From: Deltaproteobacteria bacterium
GTDB taxonomy: Bacteria > Myxococcota > B64-G9
Direction of reading: 5' to 3'
NCBI GenBank assembly: GCA_030591745.1
Contig: JAUVAM010000259.1
Coordinates: 1-6,223 of the forward strand
DNA: 6,223 nt
Below the pieces are notes generated by a model, which was not told the DNA's origin, made no database searches, and saw nothing but the letters and a program-made list of their open reading frames with translations. Below are positions 1-6,223 of this stretch, piece by piece (position 1 is the stretch's first letter; the number at the start of each line of letters is the position of its first letter). Position numbers and translations under genes: made by a program.

Positions 1-1
1 C

Positions 2-2071
2 CTCAAGTTCAAGGTCATCAGCAAGCGCAAACCCCGGCGGCAGACTTTTCAGGACTCCACCAGGGTGTCGGAAGCGCCTGCCCAGGAAGAGGACCACACC
101 GAGGTGGTCACGGCACCGGTTGTGGATGAAGTTGAAGACGAAATTTACGACCACACGATGCGGGTGCAGGTTCCCGAGCCGGCCAGGGTCAGTGACAAGG
201 CCGACGAGCGACGGCAGGAGATCGCTGCTGCTTTGCGTGAAGAGTTGGGTTTCGAAACGGACACCCAGCGTATGGATGGTCTGGCCGATCAAATGGAAGA
301 TCGCAATCGCCACGACCCCGCGGATGATTTCGTCACGCATGTAGAACCACCGCCCGAGTATGATCGCGAACCCGAACCCATTCGCCTGGAAGAATCCCCG
401 ATGCCGCCTGTGTCTGAGATCGAGGAGGTATTCGAGGCACCCACCAGTCCGCGAAAACCACCTGTCGTGGTCTTCGAGCCCGAGCCTGAGCCCGTGCCGG
501 CCTTCATGCCCCCAGTGGAGACGTCACCGCCGTCTGAGCCTGTTTTTGAGCCCCCGGCCGATTGGGGTGCGGCACCTGAGCAGCCTTTGCCCTCGACCGG
601 AGGTGCGGCTCAGGATGTGGACTACGACGACGAAGAAGAGGAAGAAGCGGCCAATTTCGTTGAGCCCTTTTCCTTGCTCAATAATTTGATTCGCGAGAAT
701 TTCGCAGAGCCCCATGTGGCCACCGAAGCGCAACCCGTGGTGGAAGTCATCGCCTACACCAGCGGCAAAAGCGTCAGCAGCTACGAGCAGGTACCCCAGG
801 GCAAGAAGCATCGCATCGGCCCCACCAAGATGCCTTTGGTGACCTATAAGGGCAAAGGCTCTTGTCAGGTGATGTTCACGGATTCGTTTTCCGGTGGGGT
901 GATCGTCGGTGGGCAAACTTTGCCCTTGGATAACTTGAAGAAAGCAGAGAACCAGGCGGGGCGCCACAAAGGACAGCGGGTTTACGAATACAAGCTGATG
1001 AAAGGTGACTACGCCAACTTGATCCATGAAGGTGGTGGGTCCTTTGTGCGCTTTGTTCACCCGCCCAAGCTCCCCAAGGCCAAGGTTGAGTTTAGTGTGG
1101 ACAAGGGCAGCCTGAAGATCCTTGGGTCCACCTTCGCGGGGCACGTGCTGCTGTTGGTGATCATGGGTTTGTTCGCATCCCAGAAGCAGGCCGCGGCTGA
1201 CGTGGACCTGGATCGCTTCGCCAAGGTGGACATCAAAGAGCTCAACATGGAGAAACCGGAGGAGGAGGTCGAGATTCCCCTCGACCAACTCCCCAAGCCG
1301 GAAGAAGAGAAAGTCGAAGAGAAAAAAGAAGAAGAGAAGGTAGAAGAAAAGAAAGAAGAGAAGCCCAAGCCGACCAAGAAGCCCAAGCGCCACAAGCGCA
1401 GCAAGAAGAAAAAGGGTGGTGATGGCGGAAGCGGCGGCGGCGTGGGCATGATGGCGGCCCTGGGTAATCTTTCCCAGAAGAAAAACAGCGCCAACATCGT
1501 CGCGGCTGTGACCAATCTGGATGCGGTGCGCGTACCTGGGGGGCGTTCCCGCTACAAGGTCTCCGGTCTGGTGGCCAAGCTGCCGTCTTCGTCGGTGGTG
1601 ATGTCGAGCGGCAAGGGTGTGGGCGTCAAAGGCGGCGTGGAGATGCTGCGCGGCGGAAGAGGCCGTGGTGGTCGGGCCGGCATCGGTCCGGGTGGCCTGG
1701 GTGGTGGCAGTTCCGGCAAGCGTGGTGTGCGCGGTGTGGTCTTCAAGACCCGTAGAATCAAGCGCAAAGGACATGGTACTTTGAGCCGGGCAGCCATCGC
1801 CAAGGTTGTGCGCAAGCATCTGCGTCAGATTCAGGCTTGCTACGAGAAGAACCTGCTTTTGAATCCCAAGCTCAAGGGTAAGTTGATGATGGAGTGGGTC
1901 ATCTCCACATCGGGCTCTGTGAGCGTGGTCAAAGCCAAGGTGAACACCATGGCCACTCCAGCCGTGGCCATGTGCGTTCAAGCTCGGATTAAGCGTTGGA
2001 AGTTCCCTAAACCTAAGGGTGGCACCGTTGTCGTTACCTATCCATTCATCTTCAATGTCGTTGGCTTCTAG
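2..2071 (+). CDS. GltG/PglI/NfsG-like trans-envelope protein with AgmX/PglI (TonB-like) C-terminal domain; 5'-truncated by the window edge
   Basis: The frame is open from base 2, and the visible 689 residues begin LKFKVISKRK, which reads like the last beta-strand of an FHA domain. The GTG at 65 has no well-spaced Shine-Dalgarno sequence, so the true start is probably upstream. Visible order: acidic, proline-rich and probably disordered cytoplasmic linker (residues ~11-240, with FEPEPEPVP and DDEEEEE); a compact domain (~244-356) resembling the middle domain of AgmX/PglI-family proteins; one membrane helix (~373-394, around GHVLLLVIMGLF); a periplasmic Glu/Lys tract (~410-455) with a KPKRHKRSKKKK basic patch; Gly-rich linkers (~470-590); and the C-terminal domain (592-689), running from LSRAAIAKVVRKHL through CYEKN to RWKFPKPKGG and TYPF. 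Cys613 and Cys658 lie in that domain. Family knowledge: M. xanthus GltG, GltJ and NfsG link the AglRQS motor in the inner membrane to outer-membrane parts. A neighbouring barrel/TPR operon supports this role. GltG versus NfsG orthology is unresolved. Confidence 0.85.
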   Translation, partial: LKFKVISKRKPRRQTFQDSTRVSEAPAQEEDHTEVVTAPVVDEVEDEIYDHTMRVQVPEPARVSDKADERRQEIAAALREELGFETDTQRMDGLADQMEDRNRHDPADDFVTHVEPPPEYDREPEPIRLEESPMPPVSEIEEVFEAPTSPRKPPVVVFEPEPEPVPAFMPPVETSPPSEPVFEPPADWGAAPEQPLPSTGGAAQDVDYDDEEEEEAANFVEPFSLLNNLIRENFAEPHVATEAQPVVEVIAYTSGKSVSSYEQVPQGKKHRIGPTKMPLVTYKGKGSCQVMFTDSFSGGVIVGGQTLPLDNLKKAENQAGRHKGQRVYEYKLMKGDYANLIHEGGGSFVRFVHPPKLPKAKVEFSVDKGSLKILGSTFAGHVLLLVIMGLFASQKQAAADVDLDRFAKVDIKELNMEKPEEEVEIPLDQLPKPEEEKVEEKKEEEKVEEKKEEKPKPTKKPKRHKRSKKKKGGDGGSGGGVGMMAALGNLSQKKNSANIVAAVTNLDAVRVPGGRSRYKVSGLVAKLPSSSVVMSSGKGVGVKGGVEMLRGGRGRGGRAGIGPGGLGGGSSGKRGVRGVVFKTRRIKRKGHGTLSRAAIAKVVRKHLRQIQACYEKNLLLNPKLKGKLMMEWVISTSGSVSVVKAKVNTMATPAVAMCVQARIKRWKFPKPKGGTVVVTYPFIFNVVGF
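1301..1354 (+). repeat. Two tandem 27-bp units encoding EEEKVEEKK within the trans-envelope protein
   Basis: Bases 1301-1327 and 1328-1354 encode the same nine residues, EEEKVEEKK, twice in a row (visible residues 434-451). The DNA copies differ at several synonymous third positions, so this is a diverged duplication, not a fresh one. A further partial unit (EEK, then PKP) follows. The tract is almost all purine on the plus strand (1316-1340 and 1342-1363 are homopurine). It lies just after the membrane helix and probably forms a charged, extended or helical periplasmic rod, comparable to the Glu/Pro/Lys-rich spacer of TonB proteins. Confidence 0.8.
1775..2068 (+). other. AgmX/PglI-type TonB-like C-terminal domain (region within the first CDS)
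   Basis: Visible residues 592-689 form the recognisable domain of this family. An N-terminal helix (LSRAAIAKVVRKHLRQIQACYEK) leads to a strand (KLKGKLMMEWVI), a turn (STSGSVSVVKAKV), a second helix carrying Cys658 (AVAMCVQARIKRW) and a last strand (TVVVTYPFIFNVVGF). This is the helix-strand arrangement of TonB C-terminal domains. The two cysteines at 613 and 658 occupy positions that I recall as usually Cys in family members, and they could form a disulfide in the periplasm. The inferred role is contact with a periplasmic or outer-membrane partner, plausibly a product of the downstream genes. Confidence 0.8.
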
Positions 2072-2075
2072 CCAA

Positions 2076-2083
2076 GGGAGGGA
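2076..2083 (+). promoter_or_regulatory. Shine-Dalgarno site that fixes the start of barrel 1 at 2088
   Basis: GGGAGGGA sits 4 bases before the ATG at 2088, in the 16-nt gap after the stop codon of the upstream gene. The same frame is open back to an ATG at 2019, but that start lies inside the upstream gene. It would also place 23 polar residues ahead of what is otherwise a clean signal peptide. The 2088 start is therefore preferred. Confidence 0.8.
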
Positions 2084-2087
2084 CCGT

Positions 2088-2810
2088 ATGCGCCCTTCGC
2101 ATCTTCTCCGTCGGTGCATGTGCCCGACGCTGATGCTGCTTGTGTTGTTTGCCGGGGTCGTCACACCTGCTTACGCTGACGAGGACGGCCTGGATCAAGG
2201 CAAGGTCTTCGCTGTGCAGCCGCGACCCTATCAAATGAATCAAGAGTTCGCCTTGTCTTTTGGTTTCTTGCCCCTGGACGCCTTTTACAAGATGTTCTCG
2301 GTCAACGGCCACTATGTGGTTCACTTCAGCGACCTTTGGGCCTGGGAGGCCGTGCATCTGTCCTTTTCCAAGTATCTGGACGTGGACACAGGGCTGAAGG
2401 GCGAACTGGCCGATCGTTGGGACACCAGCCCCACGAATCCGGAAGAAGACCGCATCGACTTCATCTTGGACACCAATTTGATGATTAAACCCATGGTGGG
2501 CAAGGCGGCCTTGTTTGACAGCATGGTGATCCACAACGAAACCTACTTCCTCATTGGCGTGGGTGCGCTGAAGTTCGAGACGGCCTGGTATCCTGCCATC
2601 AATGTGGGCGTGGGCATTCGCATCTTCGTCATCGACACCATCTCGGTTCGCCTGGAGGTGCGAGAGTATCTCTCTCTTGAGGAGGGCGGAGTGGGGAGCA
2701 CGCTGCAGTTTGGTCTGGGCTTTTCATACAATGCCTTCGCAGAGGAGGCTCGGCCCGCTGTACGCACGCTGCGTGAGGCGGACGTGAAGGACCCAGGAGG
2801 TCGGCGATGA
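2088..2810 (+). CDS. Outer-membrane beta-barrel protein 1 (GltA/GltB, NfsA/NfsB-like; 'OMP_myx' type)
   Basis: This 240-residue protein has a Sec signal peptide: basic start with RR at 8-9, hydrophobic core LMLLVLFAGVV, likely cleavage after AYA at residue 30. The mature part consists of alternating hydrophobic/polar strands such as EFALSFGFLPLDAFYK, HYVVHFSDLWAWEAVHLSF, INVGVGIRIFV and TLQFGLGFSYNAF. The LPLDAFYK turn, the early LWAWE motif and the overall size are what I recall for small beta-barrels from Myxococcota. M. xanthus GltA, GltB and GltH (gliding) and NfsA and NfsB (spore coat) belong to this broad class and form the outer-membrane platform of their machines. Barrel sequence appears to end at Phe217; the last 23 residues are a charged, Arg-rich tail, and their codons also hold the next gene's ribosome site. 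The stop overlaps the next start in ATGA. Barrel prediction is strong; which Glt paralogue it matches is open. Confidence 0.82.
   Translation: MRPSHLLRRCMCPTLMLLVLFAGVVTPAYADEDGLDQGKVFAVQPRPYQMNQEFALSFGFLPLDAFYKMFSVNGHYVVHFSDLWAWEAVHLSFSKYLDVDTGLKGELADRWDTSPTNPEEDRIDFILDTNLMIKPMVGKAALFDSMVIHNETYFLIGVGALKFETAWYPAINVGVGIRIFVIDTISVRLEVREYLSLEEGGVGSTLQFGLGFSYNAFAEEARPAVRTLREADVKDPGGRR
2795..2800 (+). promoter_or_regulatory. Perfect Shine-Dalgarno (AGGAGG) of barrel 2, inside the end of barrel 1
   Basis: AGGAGG lies 6 bases before the ATG at 2807, within the final codons of barrel 1. Start and stop overlap as ATGA (2807-2810). This arrangement implies translational coupling, with ribosomes ending barrel 1 able to re-initiate on barrel 2. 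That would keep the two barrels at a fixed ratio, as expected for partners in one complex. Confidence 0.8.
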
Positions 2811-3490
2811 AAGGCATGAATCGCGCGTTGGCCGCAATGGTTCTGGCGGGTTTTTGTATGGCTGGCATGATCGGGCAGGCCGAGGGCGCAGAGCAACCTT
2901 TGTCCAGCCGGGATGGCCCCATCCAGAAACGACTCTACGCCATCGATCATGAGCTGAGCCTTGGCTGGTCCTATTTGCCCTTGGATTCTTATTACAAGGG
3001 TTATGGCGTGTCTTTGTCCTACACCATTCACTTGAACCACCTGTGGGCCATTGAACTCTTTCGCTTGGGGCTGACTTACAATCTGGATTCGGATCTGAAG
3101 ACCAAGCTCATTGAACAAATGCCGGACATTTCACCGGCTGAGTTTCCGGCGGTGGTCTTGATGGAGAACACCAACCTGCTTTTCAAGATGTTATATGGCA
3201 AACAGACATTTTTGAATCGACAGGTGTTGCACTATGAACTTTTTGCTTCGGGCGGGGTCACTTTCGCCTTTCGCAATCCCTTCAATGTTCATGAGCTTGA
3301 TATGGAGTATGCGCGCTTTGAGTTTGGCGTGAACCTGGGCGTGGGATTCCGCTTTTGGCTCAACCCGGACTGGTCTGTTCGGGTTGATATGCGGAATACC
3401 CTGTTGTTGTTGAGTTTCACCCAGGGTTTCGATGACTACCTGCCCAAGAACGCAGCAGAGATTGGCCTCTCGCTGTCGTACGCTTTGTAG
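2807..3490 (+). CDS. Outer-membrane beta-barrel protein 2, paralogue of barrel 1 (GltA/GltB, NfsA/NfsB-like)
   Basis: This 227-residue protein has a signal peptide (MKGMNRALAAMVLAGFCMAG) with likely cleavage after AEG at residue 27. Residues line up with barrel 1 along most of their length: ELSLGWSYLPLDSYYKGYGV matches the LPLDAFYK region, HLNHLWAIEL matches HFSDLWAWEA, NTNLLFKMLYGKQ matches NLMIKPMVGKA, and NLGVGFRFWL matches NVGVGIRIFV. The pair therefore arose by duplication and diverged widely. It ends directly on the final strand (EIGLSLSYAL) with no tail, unlike barrel 1, and the last residue is Leu where many outer-membrane proteins have Phe or Trp. Cys17 is not a lipobox cysteine, since Phe precedes it. 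Inferred role: second subunit of an outer-membrane platform contacted by the downstream periplasmic proteins. An alternative ATG at 2816 is less well placed relative to AGGAGG. Confidence 0.82.
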   Translation: MKGMNRALAAMVLAGFCMAGMIGQAEGAEQPLSSRDGPIQKRLYAIDHELSLGWSYLPLDSYYKGYGVSLSYTIHLNHLWAIELFRLGLTYNLDSDLKTKLIEQMPDISPAEFPAVVLMENTNLLFKMLYGKQTFLNRQVLHYELFASGGVTFAFRNPFNVHELDMEYARFEFGVNLGVGFRFWLNPDWSVRVDMRNTLLLLSFTQGFDDYLPKNAAEIGLSLSYAL

Positions 3491-3494
3491 GAGA
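3489..3494 (+). promoter_or_regulatory. Shine-Dalgarno of the GltC-like gene, fused with the stop codon of barrel 2
   Basis: The TAG stop of barrel 2 (3488-3490) runs into AGGAGA (3489-3494), followed 7 bases later by ATG at 3502. A ribosome terminating on barrel 2 thus sits on the next gene's binding site, which favours coupled translation. Confidence 0.7.
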
Positions 3495-3501
3495 AGAAAC
3501 C

Positions 3502-5178
3502 ATGTTCCGGTTCGACGGACGGTTTTGGCGGTTGTGCATCATGGCCATTTGGCTTCTTGGCGGCGCTGGACTAGCGCAAGCTCAGGGTGAGGACGACACG
3601 GAAGGTTCTGGGGGTGGTGAGGCGTCTCCGCCGGAAGGTGGCGCGACCAAACCCCCGCCCGCCCCCCCGCCTGAGGGCGGCGAGACCCCCCCCCCGCCCG
3701 CACCCCCGCCTGAGGGCGGCGAGACCACGCCTCCGCCGGCCGCTGGCGCGGAAGCGCTGAGCGAGGAAGAGATCAAAGAATTGGAGGGCGCCGTCGACGA
3801 GAAGGTGGCGGTGGGGCCTGAAGTGTTCGACGAAGGGGTTAAGAACTACTACGACGGCAACTATGTTCAGGCCTGCGCTCGGCTTTGGGACTACATGGCC
3901 GGTAACGAACCCGGGGCGGACAAGTTTGGCTATGCGGAGTTCTTCATTGCGCAGAGCTTAGAGAAGCTGGAGTTGAACCACGTGGCGGTAGAGTACTACT
4001 ACAATGTCGCCAAGAACCGCACCAAGCCCGAGTTGTTGCCCGATTCATTGGAAGCCCTGGAGCGCATCAGTCGCACCAAGCCTTTCGACAGGACCCTGGT
4101 CTTGCGGGATTTGGTTTACGACAGCACCTTCGGATACCTGCGGCCCGATCTCAGGGATTTCGTCGAGTATCACCAGGGTTTGCTGGACTACAAAAACGGA
4201 TTCATTCGCTGGGGACATCGGCACTTCAGCAGGCTGAACTTGGATAGCTACTACAGGTACAAGTCCAAGTACGTGAACGCGGTCTATGAACTGGTCAAGT
4301 ACAACCTGGACGGGGCACTGAAGCTTTTCGAAGAGATCTTGGCTTCGGACTTCCAGCAGGCGGACGTCATCAACAACGCCAGGCAGAGCGTTGCGCGCAT
4401 TCTCTTTGAGCAGAAGAAGTACAAAGAAGCCTACGACATGTATGAGACCATCGATGCGCCAATCGAGATGCAGGCCTCGGTATTTTTGGAGGAGGCTTGG
4501 GCTCAGTACTACATGAAGAATTATCAGCGCGCCATGGGCTTGTTGTACGCCCTGGAGGCACCCAGCTACTATCGATATTTTAATCCCGAGAAGTACATCC
4601 TCAAGGCGCTCATCTACAAGAACCTCTGCCACTACAACGTGGCCAAAGACGCCATCAGCGAATTCTTTCAGCAATATGGTGATGCCATTCGGGCGGTCTA
4701 CGATCGGGTGGACTTGGACAAGAATGAGGTTCTTTTGGATGCGGCCCTGCAGGACGCTGAGTTGGTGGAGATGAGCAAATTTCAGCGCCTGCTGGATACC
4801 GAGTTGGCAAACCTCGCCAACTTTGAGAGCGCCTGGGGTGACAACGGCTTGCTTGAACACTTGGATCGCATTTATGACCTGAAGATCCGGGAGATCAACC
4901 GGGATTTGAAGCAGCGCTTGGACTCGGTGGTTCGCAGGGTGGCCGAGCGACTGTTGCTGTTTGAAGAGCAGATGAACCTCTTGGAATATGAGGTCGGTTT
5001 GTCCATCTACAAGCGCATCAAGGGCGCGCCAACCATGAAGGAAGAGGAAAAGCAGGAAATCCCCTTCGCCGCAGCGCAGATTTATTACGAGTTTGACGGG
5101 GAGTTCTGGAACGATGAGCTGCATGACTTTCTCTTCTTCATCGAAGATCGCTGTTTCAGCGAGGAACGCTGGGAATAG
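3502..5178 (+). CDS. Periplasmic helical-repeat (TPR-like) protein, GltC/NfsC-like
   Basis: The protein is 558 residues. A signal peptide (core LCIMAIWLLGGAGLA) is probably cleaved after AQA at residue 27. A low-complexity Gly/Pro/Glu linker (28-85) follows, containing two copies of a 13-residue unit, PPPAPPPEGGETP/T. From about residue 106 the chain is helical and TPR-like, with recognisable hairpins at YYDGNYVQACARLWDYM (116-132), QKKYKEAYDMYE (304-315) and MKNYQRAMGLLYALEA (338-353). Long helices with coiled-coil character span ~427-500. The C-terminus carries an aromatic, acidic motif (FDGEFWNDEL, 531-540) and a single Cys551, which I recall from related myxobacterial TPR proteins. Family knowledge: GltC is a periplasmic factor that associates with GltA/GltB at the outer membrane, and nfsC follows nfsA-nfsB in M. 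xanthus. The gene's place directly after two barrels fits that. TPR scaffold is secure; the GltC assignment is by context and resemblance. Confidence 0.78.
   Translation: MFRFDGRFWRLCIMAIWLLGGAGLAQAQGEDDTEGSGGGEASPPEGGATKPPPAPPPEGGETPPPPAPPPEGGETTPPPAAGAEALSEEEIKELEGAVDEKVAVGPEVFDEGVKNYYDGNYVQACARLWDYMAGNEPGADKFGYAEFFIAQSLEKLELNHVAVEYYYNVAKNRTKPELLPDSLEALERISRTKPFDRTLVLRDLVYDSTFGYLRPDLRDFVEYHQGLLDYKNGFIRWGHRHFSRLNLDSYYRYKSKYVNAVYELVKYNLDGALKLFEEILASDFQQADVINNARQSVARILFEQKKYKEAYDMYETIDAPIEMQASVFLEEAWAQYYMKNYQRAMGLLYALEAPSYYRYFNPEKYILKALIYKNLCHYNVAKDAISEFFQQYGDAIRAVYDRVDLDKNEVLLDAALQDAELVEMSKFQRLLDTELANLANFESAWGDNGLLEHLDRIYDLKIREINRDLKQRLDSVVRRVAERLLLFEEQMNLLEYEVGLSIYKRIKGAPTMKEEEKQEIPFAAAQIYYEFDGEFWNDELHDFLFFIEDRCFSEERWE
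3652..3729 (+). repeat. Two tandem 39-bp units encoding a Pro-rich linker, containing a C10 run
   Basis: Units 3652-3690 and 3691-3729 each encode PPPAPPPEGGET plus one residue (Pro, then Thr). A partial third unit (PPPA) follows, and a degenerate relative (SPPEGGATK) precedes them. Within them are a run of ten cytosines at 3686-3695, crossing the unit boundary, and a run of seven at 3662-3668. Whole-unit gain or loss stays in frame; a change in a cytosine run does not. The encoded segment is a flexible linker between the signal peptide and the helical body. Confidence 0.85.
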
Positions 5179-5192
5179 GCGTTAGAGGCCTT

Positions 5193-5197
5193 GGGAG
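5193..5197 (+). promoter_or_regulatory. Shine-Dalgarno that sets the start of the GltD-like gene at 5203
   Basis: GGGAG lies 5 bases before the ATG at 5203, inside the 24-nt gap after the preceding gene. The gap shows no hairpin or T-run, so the gene continues the same transcript. The ATG opens directly into a signal peptide, which supports this start. Confidence 0.7.
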
Positions 5198-5202
5198 CGA
5201 CC

Positions 5203-6223
5203 ATGAATGCAGCACGTAGCTTGTTGATGACCCTTTTGTGTCTGTTGGCCTTTGTGCCATCAGCCTGGGGCTTTTCTTTGACCGACGGCGCGGAAGAGAA
5301 GGCCGAGTTTGTTGACGGCCTCAAGCGTGACGTCATCAAGGTGGAGCACTCCATTCAGGTCACCAAGGATCTGATCAAGAAGTCCAAAGGGGCCAAGTTC
5401 ATGCCGGACATCAAGTTTCGGCTGGCTGAGCTCTATGTGGAGAAATCCAGGTTGGTCTACTACCTGGAGGTAGAGCGGCGGGGGGCTGAGGCGGCCAACT
5501 CGCCAGAGGCGAAACTGCTTAAGAATGAGGCCATCACCATTTACGCGGATTTGATGAAGGAATTTCCTGAATACCGGTACAACGACAGGGTTTTGTTCTT
5601 CATGGCCCACGAGTACCACGAGCTCGGCATGCATGAAGACATGCTGAGTTCTTACAAGAAGTTGGTAGATGATTACCCCAAGAGCACCCTGCTTTTGGAG
5701 TCCTTGTACATCATTGGCAACTATTATTTCGACACGGACAAACTGGAAGACGCCGAGAAGACTTACAAGAAGATTTTGGGATACCGCGAGTCGCCCATGC
5801 ACAGCATGGCTCGTTACCGTTTGGCCTGGGTGGCCATCAACAAAGCGCGCTTGCACAAAAAGTGGTGGAAGGTAGCGGTGAAGTTGTTTGAACAGGTGGT
5901 CGATGCCTCCAATATCGCGGAGGAGAAGATGGCTGTGGGTACCCACAAGCCCATCGATATCAAGCTCGAGGCCCTCAACGGCATCGTTTTTTGTTACACC
6001 GAGGTATACAAACCCAAAATAGCTTTGGAGTATTTCCGCAAGCTCGCTTCCTCCAAGACCGTCTATCTGCATGCCTTGGAAAAACTGGCCAATCGTTATT
6101 TCATCAAAGAGCAGTTTGACAACGCCGCTCTTTTGTACCGTCGCATCATTGAGCTTTCGGATGACGTTGAGAAAAACCTGGATTACGCTCAGCGGGTTTA
6201 TGACGCCTCCTCGTACTCCAAGA
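5203..6223 (+). CDS. Secreted TPR protein, GltD/NfsD-like (AgmU type); 3' end beyond the window
   Basis: The frame stays open from the ATG at 5203 to the last base, giving 340 residues without a stop. A signal peptide (MNAARSLLMTLLCLLAFVPSAWG) is probably cleaved after Gly23; Cys13 follows Leu and is not a lipobox. An N-terminal helical section (EFVDGLKRDVIKVEHSIQ, then FRLAELYVEKSRLVYYLE) resembles the opening of large myxobacterial TPR proteins. TPR-like hairpins follow at ~124-160 (VLFFMAHEYHELGMHEDMLS), ~163-198 (LYIIGNYYFDTDKLEDAEKTY), ~200-235 and ~288-325 (LANRYFIKEQFDNAALLYRR). In M. xanthus, GltD (AgmU) and NfsD are periplasmic TPR proteins of over 1,000 residues, and nfsD follows nfsC, matching the order here. 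Function inferred: periplasmic scaffold joining inner- and outer-membrane parts. GltE/NfsE-type or generic TPR protein remains possible until the rest is seen. Confidence 0.75.
   Translation, partial: MNAARSLLMTLLCLLAFVPSAWGFSLTDGAEEKAEFVDGLKRDVIKVEHSIQVTKDLIKKSKGAKFMPDIKFRLAELYVEKSRLVYYLEVERRGAEAANSPEAKLLKNEAITIYADLMKEFPEYRYNDRVLFFMAHEYHELGMHEDMLSSYKKLVDDYPKSTLLLESLYIIGNYYFDTDKLEDAEKTYKKILGYRESPMHSMARYRLAWVAINKARLHKKWWKVAVKLFEQVVDASNIAEEKMAVGTHKPIDIKLEALNGIVFCYTEVYKPKIALEYFRKLASSKTVYLHALEKLANRYFIKEQFDNAALLYRRIIELSDDVEKNLDYAQRVYDASSYSK

Follow-up and report, generated by a model that had tools for sequence, protein, structure and literature searches.

The closest described relatives of the system considered here are trans-envelope machines of Myxococcus xanthus. 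The Glt gliding machinery includes GltG, barrels of the GltA/B class, GltC, GltD and a motor; within Agl-Glt, AglR contacts GltG (PMC3858216), and CglB, a VWA adhesin, is part of the complex (PMC13104615). The Nfs spore-coat machinery has an A-B-C-D block in one cluster and borrows AglRQS (PMC3858216). The ‘core complex’ of Agl-Glt-like systems was described in 2011 with its function unknown (Luciano et al., PMC3169522); in Group B it comprises aglR, Q and S with gltD, E, G and C. Finally, Myxococcus has the mts cohesion locus (MtsC, MtsD), and MtsC, there spelled MstC, is cited as being required for cohesion, S-motility and development (PMC11980579). We have analysed a stretch of 6,223 nucleotides from a myxococcotal Deltaproteobacteria bacterium (lineage B64-G9; GCA_030591745.1, contig JAUVAM010000259.1, positions 1 to 6,223), the whole of which is termed the window. 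The sequence indicates that the machine encoded is probably an Agl-Glt-like one of the core complex lineage, rather than Glt (gliding) or Nfs (spore coat). The machine itself is of a kind already described; what is new is that core-type clusters are genetically linked to genes of the mts cohesion locus. This link is invisible from the window alone because the mts genes lie outside it, and no account of it was found in the literature searched, most subscription papers being outside the reach of that search.

The surroundings of the window can be read from its relatives. A scan of species genomes with a GltC alignment led to 80 retained loci (L numbers; genomes and contigs carry G and C numbers). 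One of these, L001, is 90.6–93.0% identical to the window in DNA across nearly its whole length and carries, upstream of GltG, MtsC (592.6 bits, which passes the NCBIfam equivalog cut-off of 350), a MotA/ExbB protein and two ExbD proteins. The order MtsC-AglR-ExbD-ExbD-F-G-OMP1-OMP2-C-D (OMP, outer-membrane protein) is found in L001, L002, L003, L004 and L007, F being a small GltF/CglF-like gene between the motor and GltG (22.1 bits in L004, cut-off 90). The shorter order G-A-B-C-D is repeated in eight of the 10 closest loci (L001–L004 and L006–L009) and is therefore not due to chance; L009 begins at the motor, L006 inside GltG and L010 inside GltC. L005 (G005:C1:219515-243330) keeps the gene set in a rearranged form, with the motor after the TPR gene, followed by GltG, at the 3' end. 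Downstream of GltD in L003 and L004 are a coiled-coil protein of approximately 220–250 residues and then a TPR protein of approximately 694 residues; the latter, in L003, matches the GltE model among many TPR models (164.4 bits, cut-off 225). By comparison with these relatives, the window would be the middle of an operon with the order MtsC-AglR-two ExbD-GltF-like-GltG-OMP1-OMP2-GltC-GltD-coiled-coil lipoprotein-long TPR protein. The original prediction had proposed that an AglRQS-type motor be looked for in the flanks, and one adjoins the cluster in L001–L004 and L007–L009, where motor, G, C and D stand in one cluster, as in the core complex; the motor itself is outside the window, and in L005 it is at the other end.

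In the core clusters of Desulfobacterota and of Reinekea, GltD is followed by a secreted TSP3 protein, which matches MtsC in an N-terminal motif: E-C, C-G-x-P, a glycine-rich stretch and a short hydrophobic segment, and then the first repeat. In the isolate Reinekea marinisedimentorum, a single locus (L077) unites the motor and core genes with those for the TSP3 and VWA proteins. Four core-cluster TSP3 proteins gave 192–232.9 bits with the MtsC model, short of its cut-off of 350. Because a search with the whole core TSP3 protein returned 5503 mostly generic TSP3 matches, an alignment of the N-terminal motif and first repeat (A5) was chosen for the search, here called MtsC-N. At least one MtsC-N copy is present in 46 of 49 core-bearing genomes (69 copies in total), and 35 of the 49 have a copy no more than 20 kb from the core GltC, against 0.46 expected under uniform placement, with relatedness uncorrected; the linked copy is the only one of its genome in 26 of these 35. 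The 49 genomes are from 49 of the 80 loci, picked by flank length with 31 left out, and many are Myxococcaceae. As a control in the same genome set, MtsC-N was found within 20 kb of 11 of 18 core GltC genes, of none of 30 canonical or Nfs-like ones and of none of five of the long type.

There is also evidence from co-occurrence. Among 198 genomes of the Desulfobacterota, the phylum of the Desulfobacteraceae metagenome-assembled genome G013, the same six carry both MtsC-N and a core GltC, and 192 carry neither (Fisher, 1.3e-11). Three of the six (G013, G022 and G031) had already served for discovery and three are new (G050, G089 and G125), only G125 having both genes on one contig. For the Myxococcota, the phylum of G001 and one that includes the Myxococcus genomes, 42 of 106 MtsC-N-positive and 18 of 87 negative genomes were tested; a core GltC was found in 39 of the former and none of the latter, the negatives becoming two in 20 once G008 and G021, which have a core GltC and no MtsC-N, are added. 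The myxococcotal negatives are mostly smaller genomes and the comparison is therefore confounded by lineage. Of the 39 pairs, 15 lie within 25 kb, 23 are on different contigs and one is 115 kb apart.

An MtsD-related TSP3 lipoprotein that includes a VWA region adjoins the TSP3 protein in the Desulfobacterota and gammaproteobacterial loci. In Myxococcaceae, and in L011, L013, L017 and L079, its gene flanks the cluster in divergent orientation. MtsC is divergent and beside the core-type cluster in L038 and L053, and L038 carries MtsD itself (1007.9 bits, cut-off 800). The VWA match of the MtsD-like proteins is above the Pfam cut-off in L041, L144 and L038, below it in L011 and unreported in L036, L077, L013 and L079. 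In the 35 loci flanked on each side by 9 kb or more, MtsC-N was found in 23, an MtsD-like gene in 24 and either in 27. The AlphaFold model of MtsC has a mean predicted local distance difference test score (pLDDT) of 45.9, with only a C-terminal β-sandwich and a C-terminal helix credible, and its matches in the PDB are assorted Ig-like folds. Two genomes of the window type have, away from the core operon, a second full-length MtsC beside an MtsD-like VWA lipoprotein (L144, G001:C208; L147, G003:C330). Two more conserved putative lipoproteins, of approximately 450 and 770 residues, flank the TSP3/VWA pair (L036:14726-16078 and L036:18530-20857); they have homologues in other Desulfobacterota and gammaproteobacterial loci, and neither reaches a family cut-off.

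By analogy with Agl-Glt, in which AglR contacts GltG and CglB is part of the complex, we infer that the core-type machine works on mts-type adhesins by means of a proton motor, a proposal to which we give an even chance. The GltG-like TonB arm would be driven from the inner membrane by a proton motor of the MotA/ExbB type and would act via the periplasmic TPR proteins and the small barrels on the surface TSP3/VWA proteins (MtsC, MtsD-like). These adhesins would be moved, clustered or unmasked for attachment of cells to each other or to matrix, as Glt does with CglB, and controlled adhesion is a more likely output than locomotion. The same linkage to surface proteins is equally compatible with a secretion or assembly device, in which motor energy would serve to pass or fold MtsC/MtsD-type proteins, or a linked polymer, across the outer membrane instead of shifting them along the surface; a TonB-like arm, barrels and TPR proteins are also found in export devices. 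This we consider unlikely, since MYXO-CTERM proteins are reported, in the title of a reference listed in PMC11980579, to exit by the type II system, and the paralogous Glt and Nfs complexes carry cargo after its export (PMC3858216). It could also be that what the machine works on is polysaccharide at the surface, be it capsule, slime or matrix (the Exo polymer is moved by Nfs, and slime is linked to Glt; PMC3858216), and that the mts proteins are merely co-regulated neighbours. No polysaccharide genes were seen among the neighbours scanned, in part of the flanks of L001, L003 and L004, and the MtsC-type linkage crosses phyla and recurs as co-occurrence, so that this explanation too is improbable.

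The genes of the window can now be compared with Glt and Nfs. These genes, all on the plus strand and separated by 16, -4, 11 and 24 base pairs, are as follows, with two parts of the first protein given after it.

2..2071, plus strand: GltG-like trans-envelope protein, 689 residues in the window, running off the 5' edge so that its N-terminal FHA part precedes the window; 135 bits with the GltG model.
1109..1183, plus strand: single putative transmembrane segment of the GltG-like protein, a hydrophobic stretch judged by eye from the translation.
1781..2056, plus strand: C-terminal AgmX/PglI (TonB-like) domain of the GltG-like protein, residues 594–685 of 689 (NF033768, 115.1 bits, cut-off 40).
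2088..2810, plus strand: outer-membrane barrel OMP1, of the GltA/B class (TIGR04565 OMP_myx_plus, 69.8 bits, cut-off 60).
2807..3490, plus strand: outer-membrane barrel OMP2 (TIGR04565, 60.3 bits, cut-off 60; PF13505, 29.1, cut-off 28.7).
3502..5178, plus strand: GltC-like secreted protein, 558 residues, with 52 homologues; 74.7 bits with the GltC model.
5203..6222, plus strand: GltD-like TPR protein, the N-terminal 340 residues, running off the 3' edge; TPR matches; full-length homologues in L003, L004 and L009 have approximately 1105 residues.

Positions and family models agree with the original prediction of five co-oriented genes for a TonB-like protein, two paralogous barrels and two TPR-class proteins. 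OMP1 and OMP2 are 30% identical (60 of 203 columns); an AlphaFold model of OMP1 consists mostly of strands, at low confidence (mean pLDDT 57.0), and in the PDB it most resembles small barrels, among them NspA, OmpX and OmpA. The GltC-like protein had no useful sequence relative in the PDB, and there was no relative among viral contigs. The prediction had also taken the machine to be Glt/Nfs-like. That likeness stands, in that the protein classes are those of Glt and, in the relatives, a motor is alongside; membership of the Glt or Nfs families does not. The AgmX/PglI domain and both barrels pass their cut-offs, and the GltG and GltC matches are below the equivalog cut-offs of 650 and 450 bits, respectively. 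The full-length GltG of L001, which has 786 residues and an FHA-like region at its start, reaches 209.7 bits, in place of the 135 of the copy truncated in the window. Each of the eight relatives’ genomes searched has a separate, better-scoring GltG (593.9–635.2 bits in seven and 371.5 in G007, all below 650), and 14 of 18 genomes have another GltC that is above the cut-off.

The trees point in the same direction. In that of GltC (79 sequences, 494 columns), 46 core-like sequences, including the window, are split with support of 100 from 33 canonical, Nfs-like and long-type ones; the core-like side comprises the window type (11), Desulfobacterota and gammaproteobacterial sequences (16), Myxococcaceae and others (14) and the L011 group (5). 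In that of the motor (44 taxa, three subunits, 542 columns), the window type and the Desulfobacterota/gammaproteobacterial motors form a clade (support 96) and, together with a small fourth group (L005 and three others), are split from the two Myxococcus motor sets (support 100). It should be noted that ‘Nfs-like’ is a label assigned by rank and gene order, and that Myxococcus references substitute here for M. xanthus sequences. Orthology with Glt or Nfs is rejected because of the scores, the trees and the separate copies in the same genomes. Gene order agrees with this. The window shares the A-B-C-D block with Nfs, in which, however, the GltG-type gene follows C, whereas in the window it precedes C, as it does not in Glt either; the predicted departure from nfs is borne out by the sister genome G001, where the canonical (C137) and Nfs-like (C139) loci have the GltG-type gene downstream of GltC. 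Unlike Nfs, the window-type operon has a motor of its own in the seven loci named above. Like the Group B core complex, the window type has the motor together with G, C and D, followed in L003 by a TPR gene that is a candidate for GltE, and it shares with the Desulfobacterota/gammaproteobacterial core complexes a side of the GltC tree and a motor clade; these have a single OMP match where the window type has two barrels, and a TSP3 protein downstream where the window type has MtsC upstream.

The same data bear on whether this might be a gliding machine, of Glt type, in a lineage outside the classic gliders. The protein classes and the kind of motor are the same, and Luciano et al. put forward, as speculation, that possession of AglR, Q, S and GltA–G may allow gliding (PMC3169522). 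The scores far under the Glt cut-offs, the separate GltG copies and the position in the trees make this very unlikely, as does the presence of the core complex in bacteria without known gliding (PMC3169522). No GltH, GltI, GltJ or GltK was seen among the neighbour genes scanned (L001, L003 and L004, flanks in part), GltJ being the only one of the four evident among the models of that scan. The earlier view that the function is probably neither gliding nor sporulation is supported.

We compared 20 motors, namely those of L001–L004 and L007–L009 and of 13 Desulfobacterota and gammaproteobacterial loci. The first ExbD protein (gene at L001:4619-5152 in L001) has asparagine, in 7/7 and 13/13, respectively, at the transmembrane position that is aspartate in the two Myxococcus motor sets (8/8 sequences), and the second retains aspartate in all 20. 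On gene order, the first ExbD may be equated with AglQ, in which, in M. xanthus, the D28N change abolishes proton conductance and halts the movements of both Agl-Glt and Nfs (PMC3858216). The asparagine at the AglQ position would then correspond to the substitution that disables AglQ in M. xanthus, and the asymmetry of two-ExbD motors is open to a direct test. Asparagine in the first ExbD is not exclusive to the window clade, as three clade-B motors have it (L158, L159 and L164); the second ExbD has glycine in L165 and L173, and L005 has aspartate in both. The motor of L005 falls in another clade (support 90), as though it had been exchanged. There is, in addition, a third type of cluster, characterised by a long GltC (approximately 800 residues) and a motor of its own (L156, L165, L167, L173 and L160–L163; L179–L183). 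Myxococcus motor set 1, which by subunit lengths we take to be M2 (MXAN_3003-5), was considered as the motor of the core-type cluster; this is unsupported, since it groups (support 100) with the motors beside the long-GltC clusters. That grouping suggests that the long-GltC cluster may be the partner of this orphan motor.

Several observations weigh against the proposed action on adhesins. The strongest is that polar mutations in both uncharacterised M. xanthus gltD paralogues (MXAN_1922 and MXAN_1327) caused no appreciable motility defect (PMC3169522), although S-motility is among the functions cited for MtsC (PMC11980579). This applies whichever M. xanthus cluster (G4 or G5) is of the core type. 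The mts locus lies near MXAN_1334. A role in adhesion may lie outside what those motility assays register. The Myxococcus core-type clusters have no motor gene alongside. MtsC-N is away from the core GltC in 11 of the 49 genomes (on another contig in 10, and at 384 kb in G015) and was not found in three (G008, G021 and G030). L008 has the operon with no MtsC nearby and no F match, and the MtsD-like profile found no MtsD-like gene in L001–L005, in which respect they differ from the mts locus. Neither adhesin gene is present in eight of the 35 well-flanked loci (L008, L012, L029, L032, L050, L052, L067 and L075), three of which (L032, L052 and L067) have MtsC-N further out, at 12.8–19.6 kb. Lastly, within the core-like side of the GltC tree, the window type and the Desulfobacterota/gammaproteobacterial sequences are joined with support of only 50.

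The link to mts gives a testable function to a complex described, since 2011, as ancestral and of unknown function, and suggests what might generate force for a known adhesin locus, whose genes have been described as serving cohesion, S-motility and development. It also provides the evolution of myxobacterial gliding with a plausible point of departure. Tentatively, and as something possible rather than probable, the core complex, the presumed forerunner of the Glt and Nfs machines, may be from Gammaproteobacteria to Myxococcota a dedicated proton-driven machine for TSP3 (MtsC-type) and VWA (MtsD-like) adhesins, with an asymmetric motor in which the subunit at the AglQ position has lost its proton-carrying aspartate and one ExbD of the pair carries the protons; gliding would then have arisen from an adhesion device, with CglB replacing MtsD.

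A second GltG occurs in G008 (L101, G008:C338:28514-30499), besides that of the L009 cluster, and scores 1087 bits with the window-type profile; this would be a duplication or a mixed bin.

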